A stretch of DNA of 64,000 bases, from assembly GCF_009834875.1 (NCBI RefSeq), contig NZ_WVHT01000001.1, positions 558,001 to 622,000 of the forward strand, written 5' to 3'. This document shows positions 42,880 to 50,329 of the stretch, one piece after another. The notes below the pieces were generated by a model, which was given only the letters and a program-made list of their open reading frames with translations, made no database searches and was not told where the DNA came from. The stretch is from Hufsiella arboris (GTDB lineage Bacteria; Bacteroidota; Bacteroidia; Sphingobacteriales; Sphingobacteriaceae). Within the stretch, counting starts at the first letter, position 1. Each line of letters starts with the position of its first letter. The translations under genes were made by a program, and so were the position numbers.

Positions 42880-44250
42880 ATGGGATGCGGAAGCTGCTCA
42901 ACAGGTGGAGGATGTACACCTGCTGGCTGCAAAAGTAATGGCTCATGCCTTACAAATGGTTGCAGCAAATTAGATGTTTACGACTGGCTGTCGGATATGG
43001 ACATGCCATCAAATTATAAAGCCTTCAATATAATCGAAGTCAAATTTAAAGGGTCCAGGAAAGATTTTTATATTAACCATGAGCACCTTTATCTGGAAAA
43101 CGGCGAACTTGTTGTTGTAGAAACCGCTACCGGCGGATACGATATCGGGCATGTTTCTGTTACCGGCGAGCTCGTTAGGATGCAGCTTAACAAGAAGCAT
43201 CTGAAGGTGGAAGATGTGGTAAAGAAAATCTATCGCAAAGCCACGCCTGCCGATGTCGACAAATGGAAAGCGGCGAAAGACCTGGAATGGGAAACAATGC
43301 ACAGGGCGCGGAAACTTGCGCTTGAGCTTGGCCTGTCGATGAAGTTAAGCGACGTTGATTACCAAGGCGATAAAACCAAAGCTACATTTTATTACACTGC
43401 AGAAGGGCGTGTCGATTTCCGCGAACTGATCAAGCGAATGGCAGAAGCATTCAGGATTCGTATCGAAATGCGCCAGATCGGTATGCGCCAGGAAGCAAGC
43501 AGGCTCGGCGGAATTGGCTCATGCGGCAGGGAATTATGCTGTTCAACCTGGTTAACCGACTTCAAAACGGTTTCAACCGCTGCGGCACGTTATCAAAACC
43601 TGTCTCTTAATACCCTCAAACTCGCCGGGCAGTGCGGTAAGCTTAAGTGCTGCCTGAACTATGAGTTGGATACTTATATGGATGCGCTGAAAGATATCCC
43701 GGATAATGTGGATAGGCTGGAAACCGGAAAGGGCTACGCACGTTTACAAAAGACCGATATCTTTAAAAAATTGATGTGGTTCAGCTATCCTAACGATGAT
43801 ACCTGGATTCCGCTGGAAATTGATCGCGTTAAAGAAATACAGCAGCTTAACAAGGAAGGAATAAAGCCTGATGATCTTAAAGATGAGTCAGCGGAAATTG
43901 AACCAGTTAAGGTTGAAAAAGTGCTGGATTATGAAAATGTAGTTGGCCAGGACAGCCTTACGCGGTTGGACGACCGGGGCCGTATTAACAAGAATCGTAA
44001 CCGGAACAAACAAAAGAGTGGAGGCAGGGATCAAAGGAACCAATCGCCGCAAGGGCAGCAAGCTTCAGGTACTTCCGCGAACAAGCCAGGAAATCAGCAG
44101 CCTCAAAGGACAGTTCCTCAACAAGCTGCGGCTAAGAATGCGCCCGAAAATGAGGAGCGAACAAGCCGCAGCCGCAACAGAAATCGTAACCGCAACAGAA
44201 ATCGCAATAATAGGCCACAAGGTAATAATGACGCCAATCCACAGGTTTAA
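42880..44250 (+). CDS. ricT: PSP1 domain protein RicT/YaaT
   Basis: A 456-residue protein. The N-terminus is unusually Cys-rich (MGCGSCSTGGGCTPAGCKSN), then comes the PSP1 core with SCGRELCC and GQCGKLKCCLNYE cysteine motifs that bind a [4Fe-4S] cluster in the Bacillus Ric complex. In Bacillus, RicT with RicA and RicF controls RNase Y; no RicA or RicF is seen here. The last 80 or so residues are Asn/Arg-rich low complexity (NRNRNRNRN near the end), possibly RNA-binding. Its 3' end overlaps gldH by 23 nt. Confidence 0.9.
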   Translation: MGCGSCSTGGGCTPAGCKSNGSCLTNGCSKLDVYDWLSDMDMPSNYKAFNIIEVKFKGSRKDFYINHEHLYLENGELVVVETATGGYDIGHVSVTGELVRMQLNKKHLKVEDVVKKIYRKATPADVDKWKAAKDLEWETMHRARKLALELGLSMKLSDVDYQGDKTKATFYYTAEGRVDFRELIKRMAEAFRIRIEMRQIGMRQEASRLGGIGSCGRELCCSTWLTDFKTVSTAAARYQNLSLNTLKLAGQCGKLKCCLNYELDTYMDALKDIPDNVDRLETGKGYARLQKTDIFKKLMWFSYPNDDTWIPLEIDRVKEIQQLNKEGIKPDDLKDESAEIEPVKVEKVLDYENVVGQDSLTRLDDRGRINKNRNRNKQKSGGRDQRNQSPQGQQASGTSANKPGNQQPQRTVPQQAAAKNAPENEERTSRSRNRNRNRNRNRNNRPQGNNDANPQV

Positions 44251-44716
44251 GCATTTATCGCAAGGAATAATTCTTCTTTTCGTTACATGCCTGCTTATTT
44301 CATGCAATGAGAATACGCTGGTTGACAGCAACAAGGAGATTGAAAATCATAACTGGCTATACAATAACAAAATCAGGATTCCTGTAACTATTACGGATGC
44401 TGGTAAAGCTTATAACCTGTTTATGAATCTGAGGCATACGGCTAACTATAAATATTCAAATATCTACGTAATTATCCGCGAAATTGGTCCGGACAAAAAG
44501 ACAAAGGCTGTTCGGAAGGAATTTCAACTGGCATATCCGGATGGGCAATGGCTTGGCAAGGGTTCCGGAAATTTGTATAGTTACCAATTCCAGATATTTA
44601 AGAATCATCATTTCAGCCAGAAGGGCAATTACCTGATAGAATTTGAGCAAAACATGCGAGATAACCCTTTGCGTGAGGTTAGCGACATTGGCTTAAAAGT
44701 CGTTCCAACTAATTAG
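44228..44716 (+). CDS. gldH: Gliding motility lipoprotein GldH
   Basis: A 162-residue lipoprotein. A signal peptide (HRFKHLSQGIILLFVTCLL) ends in a lipobox LISC; the body has NWLYNNKIRIPVTITDAGKAYNLFMNLRHT and IFKNHHFSQKGNYLIEFEQNMR, the GldH signature. GldH is needed for gliding and for secretion by the type IX system in Flavobacterium; it is also present in non-gliding Bacteroidota. The start at 44228 is inside ricT; the same frame is open further upstream but shadows the ricT low-complexity tail. The holB-ricT-gldH order is common in the phylum, from memory. Confidence 0.9.
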   Translation: MTPIHRFKHLSQGIILLFVTCLLISCNENTLVDSNKEIENHNWLYNNKIRIPVTITDAGKAYNLFMNLRHTANYKYSNIYVIIREIGPDKKTKAVRKEFQLAYPDGQWLGKGSGNLYSYQFQIFKNHHFSQKGNYLIEFEQNMRDNPLREVSDIGLKVVPTN

Positions 44717-44728
44717 CAGTAAAGTAAA

Positions 44729-44797
44729 AAGAGGGTTTGAGCTATTTGCACCTACTTATTTCAACCCGTGTTAACCTATTTCGCTCAAAACCCTCTT
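44729..44797. terminator. Inverted repeat between convergent gldH and Rieske gene
   Basis: AAGAGGGTTTGAGC at 44729-44742 pairs with GCTCAAAACCCTCTT at 44783-44797 apart from one bulge, around a 40-nt loop. Location between converging genes suggests a two-way terminator, though the loop is long and T-runs are weak. Confidence 0.5.
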
Positions 44798-44801
44798 GTC
44801 T

Positions 44802-45236
44802 TTAACTTTTGACAGTTAAAGTACTGCCTTGAATGCTGATGTTATAAACTTTCAGGCTTGTAGCGGCGGGCCCCAAAAGAACGGCTCCGGTTGTTGCAAA
44901 CTGGCTGCCGTGATTCGGACAAATAAATCTTGCCTGGTTGGCATTGTAATTAATGGATGTTCCCTCATGCGTGCAGGCGACCTGGACCGCCGTGAACGAA
45001 GAAACATCGTTTGTTGGCCCAGTTCGAACAACAATTACACCATTAGAAACCTTTGATTCGCCAATATTTTTTATCTCGCTATTCAAATCAATTGAGAAAT
45101 TAATATTTGCGGGAGGCGTTGGAGGTTGAGGTCCGCCATCTGAATCGCTGCCACTTTTTTTGCACGCTGCCAGGCAACCGGTGCACGCTGCCGCCACGCC
45201 GATGCCGAATGCTTTAATAAATTCATCTCTTTTCAT
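44802..45236 (-). CDS. Rieske [2Fe-2S] lipoprotein
   Basis: A 144-residue protein with a lipoprotein signal ending in LAAC (Cys25), a Pro/Gly-rich linker, and a Rieske domain with the ligands Cys88-Thr-His90 and Cys106-Pro-Asn-His109. The two ligand motifs are 15 residues apart, as in Rieske proteins, so a cluster should bind. It would be a periplasm-facing electron carrier. The ATG at 45236 was chosen, because the lipoprotein signal begins there. Its start overlaps the DUF5777 gene by 14 nt. Last gene of the ECF operon; no cytochrome b partner is near. Confidence 0.88.
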   Translation of the reverse strand: MKRDEFIKAFGIGVAAACTGCLAACKKSGSDSDGGPQPPTPPANINFSIDLNSEIKNIGESKVSNGVIVVRTGPTNDVSSFTAVQVACTHEGTSINYNANQARFICPNHGSQFATTGAVLLGPAATSLKVYNISIQGSTLTVKS

Positions 45237-46146
45237 AATTACTAGGATTTGTTTTAGTGCGATGGAAGGTGAACATCCTGGAGATAGTGAATCCGAAACG
45301 GAACTCACCATCAAGCCAGGACGATGTAGAATTCGGAATAAAGTTGTTTTCAACGATCGCAGGAGCATTAACGAAATTCATCGTAAATACATGGCCTCCC
45401 GTTTCAATTTCAATTCCTATACCAAGCGGATCGTAATAATTGGTATTGGGGTTATTTTTCCGGTATTGAGAAAATACGTGATTATAATCAACCACCACTC
45501 CAAAACGCTTAGTGAATTTATATCGGAATGCTCCTCCAAGTGAGAATAGTGTTTTTTCATCATCAGGGCTCAGCGTTACGTTCCTGAATAAAACATTAGG
45601 AGATAGTTGTAGTGAAAACCTTGGTGAAAACTTTCGCGCCAGCAGAACTTCGACGAAGTAAGAAAAGCGGTCGGCGTAATTATCGAATACATCGGTGGTA
45701 ACCTCATACGGCGTAAATCCTGTTTTCGCAATCAGGCTCATAGAAAGCGGTATTTTATCATCGGTTGTTTGCCGGAGGGCGGCGTACTTCAGTTGAAGGT
45801 CAAGCAGCTGTTCATATTTGCTGCGTCCAAAACCAATATTCAATCTGTCTGTAATTCCATATTCGAATCCGATATAGATGTCACTTGAGTTGTCAAATCC
45901 CCAAAATGTTTTTGACCCCCCATCCACTCCTCCTATATCGCCAAATCGATGTCCAACCTGAAAATCCAGGTTGTACTTTTTTACCATCGCCGTAGTTTGT
46001 GACAGAATGAGATGGCTCGACTTAAACGTAGCAGTTACAGGTTCCGTCTTCGTTTCGCTGTTCTCCATGGTGGCCAACAAGGAGTCGGTTTGAGCCTTGG
46101 CTGTATAGCAGAAGAAGCATAATGCGATTAATAGTTTAGTTTTCAT
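45223..46146 (-). CDS. DUF5777 family beta-barrel protein
   Basis: A 307-residue protein with a signal peptide (MKTKLLIALCFFCYTAKAQ) and alternating aromatic strands typical of an outer-membrane barrel; the segments LDFQVGHRFGDIGGVDGGSK and YIGFEYGITDRLNIGFGRSK mark the DUF5777 family. Function unknown; I recall this family often near YceI and cytochrome or Rieske genes in Bacteroidota, which matches here. It starts 5 nt after the YceI stop codon. Confidence 0.85.
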   Translation of the reverse strand: MKTKLLIALCFFCYTAKAQTDSLLATMENSETKTEPVTATFKSSHLILSQTTAMVKKYNLDFQVGHRFGDIGGVDGGSKTFWGFDNSSDIYIGFEYGITDRLNIGFGRSKYEQLLDLQLKYAALRQTTDDKIPLSMSLIAKTGFTPYEVTTDVFDNYADRFSYFVEVLLARKFSPRFSLQLSPNVLFRNVTLSPDDEKTLFSLGGAFRYKFTKRFGVVVDYNHVFSQYRKNNPNTNYYDPLGIGIEIETGGHVFTMNFVNAPAIVENNFIPNSTSSWLDGEFRFGFTISRMFTFHRTKTNPSNYEKR

Positions 46147-46151
46147 GGGAA

Positions 46152-46700
46152 TTATTTTGAAGCAGTGCTGGGCGTATAATTTGCTTTAACTGTTACCTGG
46201 ATACTCTCGGCAATATTTTTGAACACAATTTTGGGGATGTCGATATGGTGGTCTTTGCACAGTACCGTAAATTTGGATTGAACAGTCACGGAGCTATTTG
46301 TAATTGAAACAGTTCCATTAATTGATCTGGCTTGTTTCACGCCGTGCACTTCAAGGTCTCCGTTAACTGTAACCTGGTAATTCCCGGGAGTTTTCCAGTC
46401 GATTTTTTCGTTTATTTTTCCTTTGAACCTTGCAAAAGGAAACTTGTCGCTCTCCATGTAATTTTCATTGAAATGTTCCTGCATCAGGCTTTTTTGGAAT
46501 TGGTAAGAATTAATCGGAATGCTGAATTGTAGTTCGCCGGTTGCCGGGTTCAAAACAGATACTCCTTTTGTCGAGGTCGCATCGATATTTTCAAGAGGTG
46601 CCTCTGAGAAAATCGTGGTTGTCACGCTTCGGCAAGTGTAAAGCGGTGGCTGGCTTTGTGTAAAAACAAAGCAAAATAAGATTGCTATGAAGTGTTTCAT
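46152..46700 (-). CDS. YceI-like lipid-binding protein
   Basis: A 182-residue secreted protein with a YceI-type lipocalin barrel: YQFQKSLMQEHFNENYMES and DKFPFARFKGKI match the conserved region, and VNGDLEVHGVKQARSINGTV follows. YceI proteins bind polyisoprenoids, including quinone precursors, in the periplasm. It overlaps the upstream anti-sigma-like gene by 4 nt. A lipid or quinone carrier fits the presence of a Rieske protein in the same operon. Confidence 0.82.
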   Translation of the reverse strand: MKHFIAILFCFVFTQSQPPLYTCRSVTTTIFSEAPLENIDATSTKGVSVLNPATGELQFSIPINSYQFQKSLMQEHFNENYMESDKFPFARFKGKINEKIDWKTPGNYQVTVNGDLEVHGVKQARSINGTVSITNSSVTVQSKFTVLCKDHHIDIPKIVFKNIAESIQVTVKANYTPSTASK

Positions 46701-47932
46701 TTTTTGCCTGTACTGAGCTTTGAAATGTTAATGTTCAGATTTATAGCCGCCCCGGTTGAAAGGAGTTTGACATTGCCATAGCCAATATCTGTAAGCGGCA
46801 ATTTTACATATGGCTGTATGCCGATGCTCGTGACAGGATTTATCTGGCGCTGGTAGATAACAGAAAGGTTCCCGATGCCAAAGAAATGCTGGTTTTTGTT
46901 CCTGACCTGATAGCTAGCCGGCCACTTAACGTTCGGGTCGGCGTATGAATAATCATATTTCTCTTTAAGCATCAAATAGCTTGACAGGCCGGCGGATAGC
47001 TGCAATGAATTTCTTTTCTTGTTGTAAAGCGTATAATTAGCATTCAACGGAATATCTATCACCTGGCAATCTGCCGAAACATCCTGCGGGTCTACCGGAA
47101 ATTTATATGATGAGTTTGGATTGTAATATTCAAATCCTGAATCGTATTTTTTCCTGGCGAGCGTAACGCCGGTTGTAAAGCTTAATTTAGGAGCAACGCT
47201 TACAGTTAACAAAAGGCCCCCGCCAAAGTCCAAGTTGCCGCTTTGAAATGAGTTTACAGAACTGACGCCAGGTGCGGCGGTTGCGCTTAAAATAATTGAA
47301 GGCTTAAATTTCTTTACTGTTTTCGCAAGTCTGGAACTACTTGAATCTGCTTTTTTTATAGTGTTGTTCGTGTTGTTTGAGAGCGTACTGCTGTCGGTAA
47401 GTTTCTGTATTTGTTGGCCGGCTACAGGTTGTTGAGCTGCTTGTCCGGATGATTTTTGTTCATTGTTACTTTGCGCAAGATGTGTGGTTTCGCTAATCGG
47501 ATTTTGATTTGTAGCAGCTGTATCGACATTCCTGAAACCCCGCGCAGTTTTTAACGAAACGTTATTTTTTGAAAACGGGGTGGAATAGTCGCCTTTTAGT
47601 TTTTTCAGTATATCACTTTCGATAGAATCGACGGTCACTTTCGAAATTGAGTTACCTTCTTTTTTGTCAGGCGTTGGTTTCTGGATCTTACTTACCTTAA
47701 TAGTATTCTTTGTTACCTGAGTATCTCCTGGCCAAAAAAGTAAAGCTATTAAAACCGTAGCTGCAATACCGCTTACAGTTGCTATGGTGAAGTAGAAAAA
47801 CCTGCGGCGCTTCTTGTCATTGCGCAGCTTGTTTTCCATTTCCCACCAATGTGTTTCGTCAAATTCAATTTTCGGATTGCCCAGGCTCTCCCGAAACAGG
47901 TCGTCAATTTTTTTTCTTTTTAAATCGCTCAT
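46697..47932 (-). CDS. Anti-sigma-like transmembrane protein with C-terminal barrel-like domain
   Basis: A 411-residue protein. Residues 1-40 are cytoplasmic and highly charged (MSDLKRKKIDDLFRESLGNP, then WWEMENKLRNDKKRRR); a single membrane segment follows at about 43-64; a long Ser/Thr/Gln-rich linker spans about 70-190; and the last 200 residues look like an outer-membrane beta-barrel protein (LDFGGGLLLTVSVAPKLSFT, NSLQLSAGLSSYLMLKEKYD). The gene overlaps the sigma gene by 4 nt, which supports an anti-sigma role. The mixed inner- and outer-membrane topology would let it bridge the envelope. The family name is not recognised. Confidence 0.7.
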   Translation of the reverse strand: MSDLKRKKIDDLFRESLGNPKIEFDETHWWEMENKLRNDKKRRRFFYFTIATVSGIAATVLIALLFWPGDTQVTKNTIKVSKIQKPTPDKKEGNSISKVTVDSIESDILKKLKGDYSTPFSKNNVSLKTARGFRNVDTAATNQNPISETTHLAQSNNEQKSSGQAAQQPVAGQQIQKLTDSSTLSNNTNNTIKKADSSSSRLAKTVKKFKPSIILSATAAPGVSSVNSFQSGNLDFGGGLLLTVSVAPKLSFTTGVTLARKKYDSGFEYYNPNSSYKFPVDPQDVSADCQVIDIPLNANYTLYNKKRNSLQLSAGLSSYLMLKEKYDYSYADPNVKWPASYQVRNKNQHFFGIGNLSVIYQRQINPVTSIGIQPYVKLPLTDIGYGNVKLLSTGAAINLNINISKLSTGKK

Positions 47933-48570
47933 TTTCCTAACCCTCCTCCGTTAATTGATAAAGTGACGCTGGTGATAGGCTTAATCGGGATAATGTTATC
48001 GGAATCGAAGCGATTTGATTCATTTTGCCTGAGCTGGAGTACCGATTTTTGCAATCGGTGCCGGGCCTTAAATAAGTTTGATTTTGATGTACCGATAGAA
48101 ATACCAAGCATTTTCGAAATTTCATCGTGAGAATAGCCGTCAATGGCGTAGAGGTTAAATACCGTTCGGTATGCTACCGGAAGTTGCTGCACTAATTTGA
48201 GAAGCTCCTTATATTCGATAGAATCAAACACGGTGCTTTCTTCCAGAACCTCGTTTGCAAAACTTATCTCTTCTGTTCTGTTATGTTTTAGTTCGGCACG
48301 ATATCGGTCGATAGCCGTATTGGAAATGATTTTTCCAAACCACGAATGAAAGGGCATCGTGTATTTGTACTTTTCAATATTTTTAAATGCCTTTAAAAAA
48401 CTGTCGTTCAGAATTTCCGCGGCATCATATTGATTTTCGGCATAACGTAAGCATTTACCCATAGCAAAGGAATAAAGGAAGCTGTACAGCATTTTTTGGC
48501 TATTGGGTTCCTTTTCAATGCAATTCTTTACTAATTGCTTAACCTTTGCTTCGTCAATGTAGCTTGTCAC
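47929..48570 (-). CDS. ECF-type RNA polymerase sigma factor
   Basis: A 213-residue sigma-70-family factor of the ECF kind. Region 2 contains AAEILNDSFLKAFKNIEKY and MPFHSWFGKIISNTAIDRYR; region 4 contains LPVAYRTVFNLYAIDGYSHDEIS and GISIGTSKSNLFKARHRLQ, the helix-turn-helix for the -35 box. The start is GTG at 48570, preceded by GCAG; no ATG is available. It heads a five-gene operon with overlapping stop and start codons, so its first target is probably this operon. Confidence 0.92.
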   Translation of the reverse strand: MTSYIDEAKVKQLVKNCIEKEPNSQKMLYSFLYSFAMGKCLRYAENQYDAAEILNDSFLKAFKNIEKYKYTMPFHSWFGKIISNTAIDRYRAELKHNRTEEISFANEVLEESTVFDSIEYKELLKLVQQLPVAYRTVFNLYAIDGYSHDEISKMLGISIGTSKSNLFKARHRLQKSVLQLRQNESNRFDSDNIIPIKPITSVTLSINGGGLGK

Positions 48571-48658
48571 CTGCTTCTTTTATACCATCACGTAGTAAAA
48601 GATAGAAAGGTTGCCTGACACTCACAATTTTTTTTGATGTCGTTAAAAACGACTCATG

Positions 48659-50014: not shown

Positions 50015-50329
50015 TTAATCCGCAGACTCTTCGGCATCCTCGCCATGTTCAACTATGTCACCATTCTTAAATAATATTCCCTGCAAAATTTCACGCCACA
50101 ACGGCTTTTGCCGGAGCAGGAATTCGAGGTCCATGCCGAAGTGTTTAAATTCTTCTTTTTGCGCATTTTGCATAATTGCTTTTGCGTCTTTGTTCTTTTC
50201 GATCGAGATACGCTGCTCGTACCAGTTAATCGCTTCCGCTTCTTCTCCGAGCGAAGCCATCATTCGCGCAAAAGTTCTGGTTTCTTCTGAAAGCTCATTA
50301 GCAGGCTCGTGATATTGATCAAATCCCAT
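50015..50329 (-). CDS. Encapsulated-ferritin-like protein (EncFtn family), no targeting peptide
   Basis: A 104-residue helical protein resembling the encapsulated ferritins that work inside encapsulin shells. The start YHEPANELSEETRTFARMMA, then EEAEAINWYEQR (Glu29, Glu30, Glu32, Trp36, Tyr37) and KEEFKHFGMDLEFLLR (Glu60, His63) match the EncFtn pattern, in which Glu and His residues from two chains form the iron oxidation site. The C-terminal encapsulin-targeting peptide seems absent; the tail is acidic (EHGEDAEESAD). No encapsulin gene is in the window. Identification is from remembered family sequences; rubrerythrin-like four-helix proteins are an alternative. Confidence 0.72.
   Translation of the reverse strand: MGFDQYHEPANELSEETRTFARMMASLGEEAEAINWYEQRISIEKNKDAKAIMQNAQKEEFKHFGMDLEFLLRQKPLWREILQGILFKNGDIVEHGEDAEESAD

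Follow-up and report, generated by a model that had tools for sequence, protein, structure and literature searches.

A five-gene operon of the sphingobacterium Hufsiella arboris (Bacteroidota; Sphingobacteriaceae) joins the genes of a probable sigma factor-regulator pair to those of three envelope proteins, one of which is a Rieske [2Fe-2S] lipoprotein. Our best explanation, to which we give somewhat less than an even chance, is that the operon is an autoregulated envelope-stress unit with redox-protection effectors, under control of the EcfO-Reo/Das-Dma type. It lies in a stretch of 64,000 nucleotides (nt) of contig NZ_WVHT01000001.1 (positions 558,001 to 622,000), which we call the window and to which all coordinates refer. 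The five genes, in the order of their reading, are as follows; neighbors overlap by 4, 4, and 14 nt, and one pair is separated by 5 nt.

47929..48570, minus strand: extracytoplasmic function (ECF) sigma factor, Das/EcfO-like, 213 amino acids (aa) from a GTG start (Pfam and NCBIfam matches)
46697..47932, minus strand: barrel-bearing regulator, Dma (AlphaFold model, matches to solved structures, and the sigma gene upstream of homologues)
46152..46700, minus strand: secreted lipocalin of the YceI family, 182 aa (PF04264 and profile matches to solved YceI proteins)
45223..46146, minus strand: DUF5777 outer-membrane barrel of 12 strands, 307 aa (PF19089; model with a predicted local distance difference test [pLDDT] score of 91)
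44802..45236, minus strand: Rieske [2Fe-2S] lipoprotein, 144 aa (PF00355; lipobox LAAC seen by eye)

A preliminary description made from the window's letters had given these genes the same positions and spacings, which we confirmed, and Pfam bore out the families it had assigned to the sigma factor (Sigma70_r4_2, 7.9e-16; Sigma70_r2, 4.6e-9) and to the YceI, DUF5777, and Rieske proteins. It had read the operon as a regulated envelope redox or lipid-handling system, and overall the sequence comparisons support that reading. The term "regulated" finds backing in a promoter-like motif that sigma and redox genes have in common even when they are encoded apart, the term "redox" in the replacement, across loci, of the Rieske protein by a small c-type cytochrome, the two being nearly exclusive, and the "envelope-spanning regulator" named for gene 2 fits the Dma/Reo class by its model and the literature. 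The "lipid-handling" part is suggested solely by membership in the YceI family. At this level of evidence, then, the gene set, the protein architecture, the shared motif, and the carrier exchange are supported.

Conservation of the gene order

We fetched 120 stretches around DUF5777 genes and added the named loci and short loci of the family; the set held 162 nonredundant DUF5777 loci, 132 of them long, and neighboring genes were labeled with profiles derived from window proteins and partner proteins. Outside the family the phylum genomes were sampled, and 60 regions were hand-picked from the listed hits. The neighborhood survey that the preliminary description had called for, with and without the sigma gene, showed that YceI-DUF5777-Rieske clusters recur: the five genes stood in the same order on a single strand in 31 of the 162 loci, the window included. 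Because this exact order recurs, we reject chance adjacency of the five genes. Chance adjacency is also ruled out by the named Rieske loci, which come from Mucilaginibacter, Daejeonella, Sphingobacteriaceae metagenome-assembled genomes (MAGs), Sediminibacterium, other Chitinophagaceae, and unassigned Bacteroidetes MAGs. Thirteen of these 24 loci include DUF5777, and sigma-dma adjoins in 12 of the 13.

The preliminary description had staked its reading on sigma and redox genes occurring together, and they do so repeatedly. A dma gene lay within five genes in 54 of the 132 long loci, which by loose labels comprised 31 with a Rieske protein, 19 with a cytochrome, 1 with both, and 3 with neither. 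YceI was found within five genes of DUF5777 in 114 of the 132, and the other recurrent members were an OB-fold protein (PF12869), Lipoprotein_15 (PF03640), and CHRD.

DUF5777 itself was present in 94 of 151 sampled Sphingobacteriaceae genomes (in 1 of the 94 only below the curated cutoff), in 153 of 395 genomes sampled across the phylum, and in none of 14 controls. It occurred in 153 of the 378 genomes that carry COX1 and in 0 of the 17 without COX1 (Fisher test, 2e-4). Since 15 of those 17 genomes fall in two family groups (11 in f18 and 4 in f11), the link of DUF5777 to aerobic life is weak.

The regulator and a shared promoter-like motif

The sole Pfam match of the regulator was to OMP_b-brl_2, at 4e-4 and below the cutoff. 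An AlphaFold model built from a 42-sequence alignment predicts three parts, given here by residue.

47735..47932, minus strand: residues 1-66, a cytosolic helix (6-18) and a helix (26-66) with the inner-membrane segment (AlphaFold model)
47297..47734, minus strand: residues 67-212, a periplasmic tether, mostly disordered (AlphaFold model)
46727..47296, minus strand: residues 213-402, a C-terminal eight-stranded OmpA-like barrel (model and structure matches)

Residues 67-212 have no secondary structure in the model, and block means over residues 71-200 were about 37 to 52 pLDDT. The barrel matched OmpA-type structures and aligned with an OmpA model at a Z score of 17.5 and a root mean square deviation of 2.9 over 167 residues. 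The sigma gene was the immediate upstream neighbor in all 56 dma homologues for which that neighbor had been fetched; 4 further homologues lay at the edge of a stretch, and some of the 56 loci are redundant.

As modeled, this is the architecture reported for the Dma proteins of B. thetaiotaomicron (PMC13088901) and for Reo of P. vulgatus and B. fragilis (PMC9308784, PMC13114119). In these papers, release of an ECF sigma factor upon outer-membrane stress is described or proposed, and induction by oxygen is reported in B. fragilis. Reports of Dma/Reo sigma systems come from Bacteroidota only (PMC13088901).

The operon resembles EcfO-Reo (B. fragilis and P. vulgatus) and Das-Dma (B. thetaiotaomicron) in several ways. 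In all of them an ECF sigma gene is followed by that of an anti-sigma-like protein; this partner has cytosolic helices, an inner-membrane helix, a disordered tether, and an outer-membrane barrel; the system's own operon is apparently within its regulon; and the host belongs to the Bacteroidota. The regulons differ. Those of EcfO-Reo and Das-Dma are described as holding NigD proteins, a lipopolysaccharide glycosyltransferase, polysaccharide utilization loci (PULs), and DUF4858/DUF4943 genes, whereas the genes cotranscribed here encode YceI, DUF5777, and the Rieske lipoprotein. In the proposed model, the Dma/Reo-type protein would be an anti-sigma factor: it would keep the ECF sigma factor bound at the inner membrane, and its C-terminal barrel would serve as its sensor of the outer membrane.

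A check for a sigma target motif upstream, also proposed in the preliminary description, found such an element before the sigma gene, its first base 45 nt from the GTG.

48590..48615, minus strand: predicted ECF promoter, GGCAACC-N16-CGT (the sole match in the window, where 0.09 were expected)

The exact heptamer GGCAACC was present upstream of 44 of 54 dma-adjoining sigma genes (0.37 in mononucleotide shuffles), and CGT followed it at a spacing of 16 in 41 of the 54. The starts of YceI/DUF5777 units were scanned with a slightly looser form of the motif. Here the full motif stood before 39 of the 44 units that sigma heads and before 8 of the 10 that are encoded apart from a sigma-dma nearby. 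Of the 108 units with no sigma-dma near, 11 had it, and 12 had only about 60 nt upstream and so could not show it; among other genes the count was 14 of 1,261. In the case of all 11 motif-bearing units without a nearby sigma gene, the genome has a strong Dma elsewhere or just beyond the stretch. When this class was narrowed to the 46 Sphingobacteriaceae loci with full upstream sequence, which omits the nonfamily loci and those with short upstream sequence, the motif was present in 11 of 28 loci from genomes with a strong Dma and in 0 of 18 from genomes without, a strong Dma being one that passes a 1e-50 cutoff picked after the score list was seen.

In the H. arboris genome (4.8 Mb) the strict motif matched 16 times and a reversed control 8 times, so most of the matches are due to chance. 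Only two strict matches lay within 200 nt before an open reading frame (ORF) start on the same strand: that of the sigma gene and that of a Lipoprotein_15 gene on another contig. The latter has the motif 67 nt before its start and encodes a product of 281 aa (PF03640 confirmed), which shares 53% identity across 227 residues with the protein that leads a lipo15-cytochrome-YceI-DUF5777 unit elsewhere. The motif before this gene slightly overlaps the longest opposite-strand ORF, the start of which is probably overcalled. As far as sequence comparison can carry it, the regulatory part of the proposal is well supported. Once freed, the sigma factor would transcribe its own operon from GGCAACC-N16-CGT, which would thus serve as a promoter, and also the distant Lipoprotein_15 gene.

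The presumed electron carrier

The Rieske domain of the last gene matched PF00355 at 4.9e-9 (36.4 bits; cutoff, 20.3), and the CxH...CxxH ligands are present.

44910..44975, minus strand: Rieske cluster ligands C88-x-H90 ... C106-x-x-H109 (from alignments)

The longest ORF starts at 45368, and the ATG at 45236 gives a lipoprotein-like N terminus (MKRDEF...LAAC-K) that Rieske homologues resemble. The Rieske subunits of bc1 and b6f complexes share the domain and the four cluster ligands with this protein. In Rieske proteins of the bc type, a second cysteine pair forms a disulfide (CTHxGC...CPCHGS); these cysteines, present in two solved relatives aligned with the window protein, are missing from it (CTHEGT...CPNHGS). 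It differs further in its lipoprotein-type N terminus and in having no cytochrome b match in its genome. The remark in the preliminary description that there was no cytochrome b partner thus held genome-wide: PF13631 had 0 matches in the genome (99.97% complete) and did match 8 of 14 control genomes. With no cytochrome b match and no disulfide cysteines, a lone bc1 Rieske remnant was rejected. The genome holds two other Rieske-domain genes, with open frames of 119 and 520 aa.

By sequence the nearest solved chain was 5cxm, presumably a PetC3. PetC3 of cyanobacteria is likewise a Rieske lipoprotein outside a bc complex, and it differs in being a protein of the cyanobacterial cytoplasmic membrane. 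We know of no YceI or DUF5777 partner for PetC3. One paper assigns it to cell-envelope homeostasis (PMC12341915), and another reports that its function seems to have nothing to do with the electron transport of photosynthesis (PMC9958174).

The carrier position was assessed by a strict rule: a profile hit plus an intact ligand motif, a cytochrome of less than 230 aa, and a distance of at most five genes from DUF5777. By this rule, of the 132 long loci, 42 had only a Rieske protein, 71 had only a small c-type cytochrome, 1 had both, and 18 had neither; the exclusivity was strong (Fisher test, 6e-19, uncorrected for ancestry), and only 1 of 414 more distant genes in the same loci qualified as a carrier. 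An earlier, looser labeling, which took in any short protein with a heme-like motif, had given 40, 80, 3, and 9, respectively; the strict recount is used here. A gene labeled by the two small-cytochrome profiles but failing the length or motif rule is present in 6 of the 18 loci with neither carrier, and another of these loci, L086, has a long cytochrome-labeled protein (725 aa). Some partner cytochromes are recognized weakly or not at all by Pfam, and their label means a heme motif plus mutual similarity.

On a quick tree of the 162 DUF5777 proteins, those linked to a Rieske gene formed a group of 39 rows (including the window and Mucilaginibacter), a group of 11, and two singles, L140 and L161; the remaining members around them were mostly cytochrome linked. 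Because the Rieske-linked rows are scattered in this way, the carrier position appears to accept two unrelated one-electron folds. Parsimony gave at least five changes between Rieske protein and cytochrome, four of them forced by starred branches, compared with about 43 for shuffled labels. Since one change rests on the doubtful label of L086, we claim only three or more. The Rieske protein of L161 carries the bc-type extra cysteines, which suggests that it was recruited separately.

The frequency of a small one-electron carrier (114 of 132 loci) would also fit an outer-membrane electron conduit, in which DUF5777 and the Rieske protein or cytochrome link the periplasm electrically to a secreted redox enzyme or an acceptor outside the cell, and YceI shuttles quinone from the inner membrane. 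A second DUF5777 class (L085, L130, and L164), which clusters with additional cytochromes and NrfC/NrfD-like genes and does not have the full sigma motif at its unit starts, points in the same direction. The operon studied here has no NrfC/NrfD-like genes, however, and its carrier is one small single-cluster protein, with no multiheme cytochrome. The DUF5777 barrel is modeled with 12 strands, which is narrow for a porin-cytochrome complex. We therefore consider a conduit quite unlikely, even with the precedent of a secreted YceI-cytochrome c protein one of whose cytochrome domains is reported to feed polysaccharide oxidases (PMC8981238).

Ligand spacing varied in both kinds of carrier. The partner cytochromes had 155 heme motifs, of which 102 were CX2CH, 49 CX4CH, and 4 CX3CH; the CX4CH form was found at loci L042, L044, L046, L023, and L024 and at many other DUF5777 loci, and five partner cytochromes without CX2-4CH had a longer spacing before CH. 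In one genus group, Rieske homologues (L009, L014, L016, L020, L022, L029, and L032) fail a plain CxH...CxxH search. Alignment of five of these (L009, L016, L022, L029, and L032) showed a second ligand pair of the form Cx6H with all four ligands kept, and in L009, the one scanned, the Pfam Rieske domain still matched.

Beyond the operon, three features of the window deserve mention, the first of which lies just past the Rieske gene.

44729..44797, no strand assigned: inverted repeat AAGAGGGTTTGAGC ... GCTCAAAACCCTCTT, in the gap that separates the GldH gene from the convergent Rieske gene (found by eye)

This repeat is a probable terminator common to the GldH and Rieske units. The gene for the gliding lipoprotein GldH (43943-44716, plus strand) has a mechanical ORF start that is too early and overlaps the upstream gene. 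An EncFtn-like encapsulin-associated ferritin gene (50015-50329, minus strand) matched PF22277 at 1.6e-22, with TIGR04535 below the cutoff; there was no match to the Linocin_M18 encapsulin in the genome that carries it.

Proposed function of the effector module

From its sequence, the window YceI protein belongs to a divergent subfamily; a family profile matched solved YceI proteins, best of all 5ixg (BcnB; E, 1.4e-10). DUF5777 was matched at 7e-87 (291 bits), and a profile search gave no solved relative by sequence, with one designed barrel at an E of 0.2. The model (mean pLDDT, 91) matched FapF, KdgM/NanC, COG4313, autotransporter, LpxR, FadL, and OMPLA barrels. Because so many barrel types match alike, the fold does not discriminate among roles. 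Across 64 aligned DUF5777 sequences, 11 columns are invariant, with two histidines (H66 and H252) in or at barrel strands; these may form a metal, cofactor, or docking site. Open-licence PubMed Central yielded no paper naming DUF5777, none for COG4315, none on YceI plus cytochrome plus an outer-membrane beta-barrel in Bacteroidota, none on outer-membrane Rieske lipoproteins in Bacteroidota or on YceI plus Rieske in Bacteroidetes, and no useful paper on an ECF21 promoter motif.

These barrel matches bear on a further reading, transport of a hydrophobic small molecule, with DUF5777 as a COG4313/FadL-like channel, YceI as the periplasmic carrier, and the Rieske protein or cytochrome feeding an oxygenase-like step elsewhere. 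A weak match of DUF5777 to Phenol_MetA_deg (0.013, below the cutoff) and the structural matches to the COG4313 channel 4rl8 (Z, 16.5) and to FadL/TodX (Z, about 12.5) are in keeping with it. We think it very unlikely: the barrels of FapF, KdgM, and NanC score as high or higher, those of autotransporters nearly as high, and the unit holds no oxygenase.

The operon joins, under a stress-type sigma factor, elements of three described systems, BcnA-LcoA, Cbp2D, and PetC3, and from this we infer that the effector module is an envelope redox-protection device. A functional counterpart of BcnA-LcoA, the proteobacterial system that detoxifies lipid peroxyl radicals, is, by analogy, the best reading of the module. 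In Burkholderia, the gene of a YceI lipocalin accompanies that of a cytochrome b561, for which a possible role in re-reducing the lipocalin's quinone was proposed, and mutation of either gene is reported to raise lipid peroxidation (PMC9113575). BcnA-LcoA is also stress induced in Burkholderia. Its redox partner is the inner-membrane cytochrome b561, whereas here it would be a Rieske lipoprotein or small cytochrome c, and the outer-membrane barrel is an addition. Membership in BcnA-LcoA itself was ruled out by the lack of a cytochrome b561 match in the genome (0 for PF01292; 8 of 14 controls match, 4 of them over the cutoff). In Cbp2D of Cellvibrio, a YceI-type quinone-binding domain and small cytochrome c domains are physically joined (PMC8981238). 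Cbp2D differs in being a single secreted protein with a carbohydrate-binding module, and it includes no sigma factor, barrel, or Rieske domain.

On the envelope redox-protection reading, the YceI lipocalin would ferry (mena)quinone or another polyisoprenoid across the periplasm. The Rieske lipoprotein, or the small c-type cytochrome in its place, would trade single electrons with the YceI-bound carrier and so recharge it, and the DUF5777 barrel would be an outer-membrane dock or channel. Such a module would most likely serve to maintain envelope lipids or quinones in the reduced state when the cell meets oxidative or outer-membrane stress, which is presumably also the inducing signal. In its fullest form, this would be a new envelope antioxidant system of the Bacteroidota, in which an outer-membrane-sensing Dma and its sigma factor induce a quinone-loaded YceI protein that an interchangeable carrier recharges and that trades its cargo with the outer membrane by way of DUF5777; as a whole we find that form doubtful.

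Several observations weigh against envelope redox protection. The described effects of Dma1 and Dma2 concern vesicles and PULs (PMC13088901). The YceI domain match (PF04264, 1.5e-12, above the cutoff) leaves the first 37 profile positions unaligned, and a single-sequence search gave no convincing solved relative. No strict carrier was found in 18 of the 132 loci, which include the sigma-dma-YceI-DUF5777 units L058, L083, L086, and L170, and 11 of the 24 named Rieske loci are without DUF5777 in the fetched stretch. By eye, the 10 of these with a called Rieske gene have it preceded by an HD-domain-like gene in 7 cases and by a methyltransferase-like gene in 6, and neither sigma nor YceI was among the listed neighbors in any of the 10. 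Two DUF5777-less Rieske loci, L194 and L206, had a motif match before the Rieske gene. The association at the genome level speaks for the reading: a strong Dma was found in 69 of the 94 DUF5777-bearing family genomes and in 5 of the 57 without DUF5777, counts that are uncorrected for ancestry. The five exceptions count against it. In two of them sigma-dma stands with a Rieske gene only; in one it faces a Lipoprotein_15 gene, with divergent motifs, as it does also at L250, in a genome that has DUF5777; and in two none of these genes is beside sigma-dma. From the Rieske loci without DUF5777 and the units without a carrier, we conclude that the carrier is a frequent and not an obligatory member of the module.

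In Chitinophagaceae and kindred MAGs, the Rieske lipoprotein gene of six loci (L195, L197, L199, L200, L201, and L208) follows a methyltransferase-like gene, as judged by eye. In five of the six it also follows an HD-domain-like gene, and there is no YceI or DUF5777 nearby.

The gaps in carrier occurrence and the vesicle and PUL effects of Dma1 and Dma2 would also fit a general outer-membrane or vesicle regulon. The proteins would then be structural or would serve lipid homeostasis, and the cofactor-bearing one would be sensory and not electron transferring. Dma1 and Dma2 of B. thetaiotaomicron are reported to govern vesicle production (PMC13088901), EcfO-Reo to react to an outer-membrane toxin (PMC9308784), and some regulated units have no linked redox carrier. 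We nevertheless regard this reading as unlikely. Two unrelated redox folds, almost never both together, at the carrier position would be odd for a structural part, and the genes adjoining dma2 in B. thetaiotaomicron were reported to be dispensable for vesiculation (PMC13088901).

If envelope redox protection is correct, DUF5777 and one Dma regulon would gain functions together. Few signals and effectors of Dma/Reo systems have been described, and the present case offers a defined promoter-like motif, a predicted regulon of small size, and a redox-type effector set. The exchange of Rieske protein for cytochrome in the same neighborhood makes a general electron-carrier role directly testable. 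The operon would carry envelope protection by a lipocalin and quinone beyond the proteobacteria.

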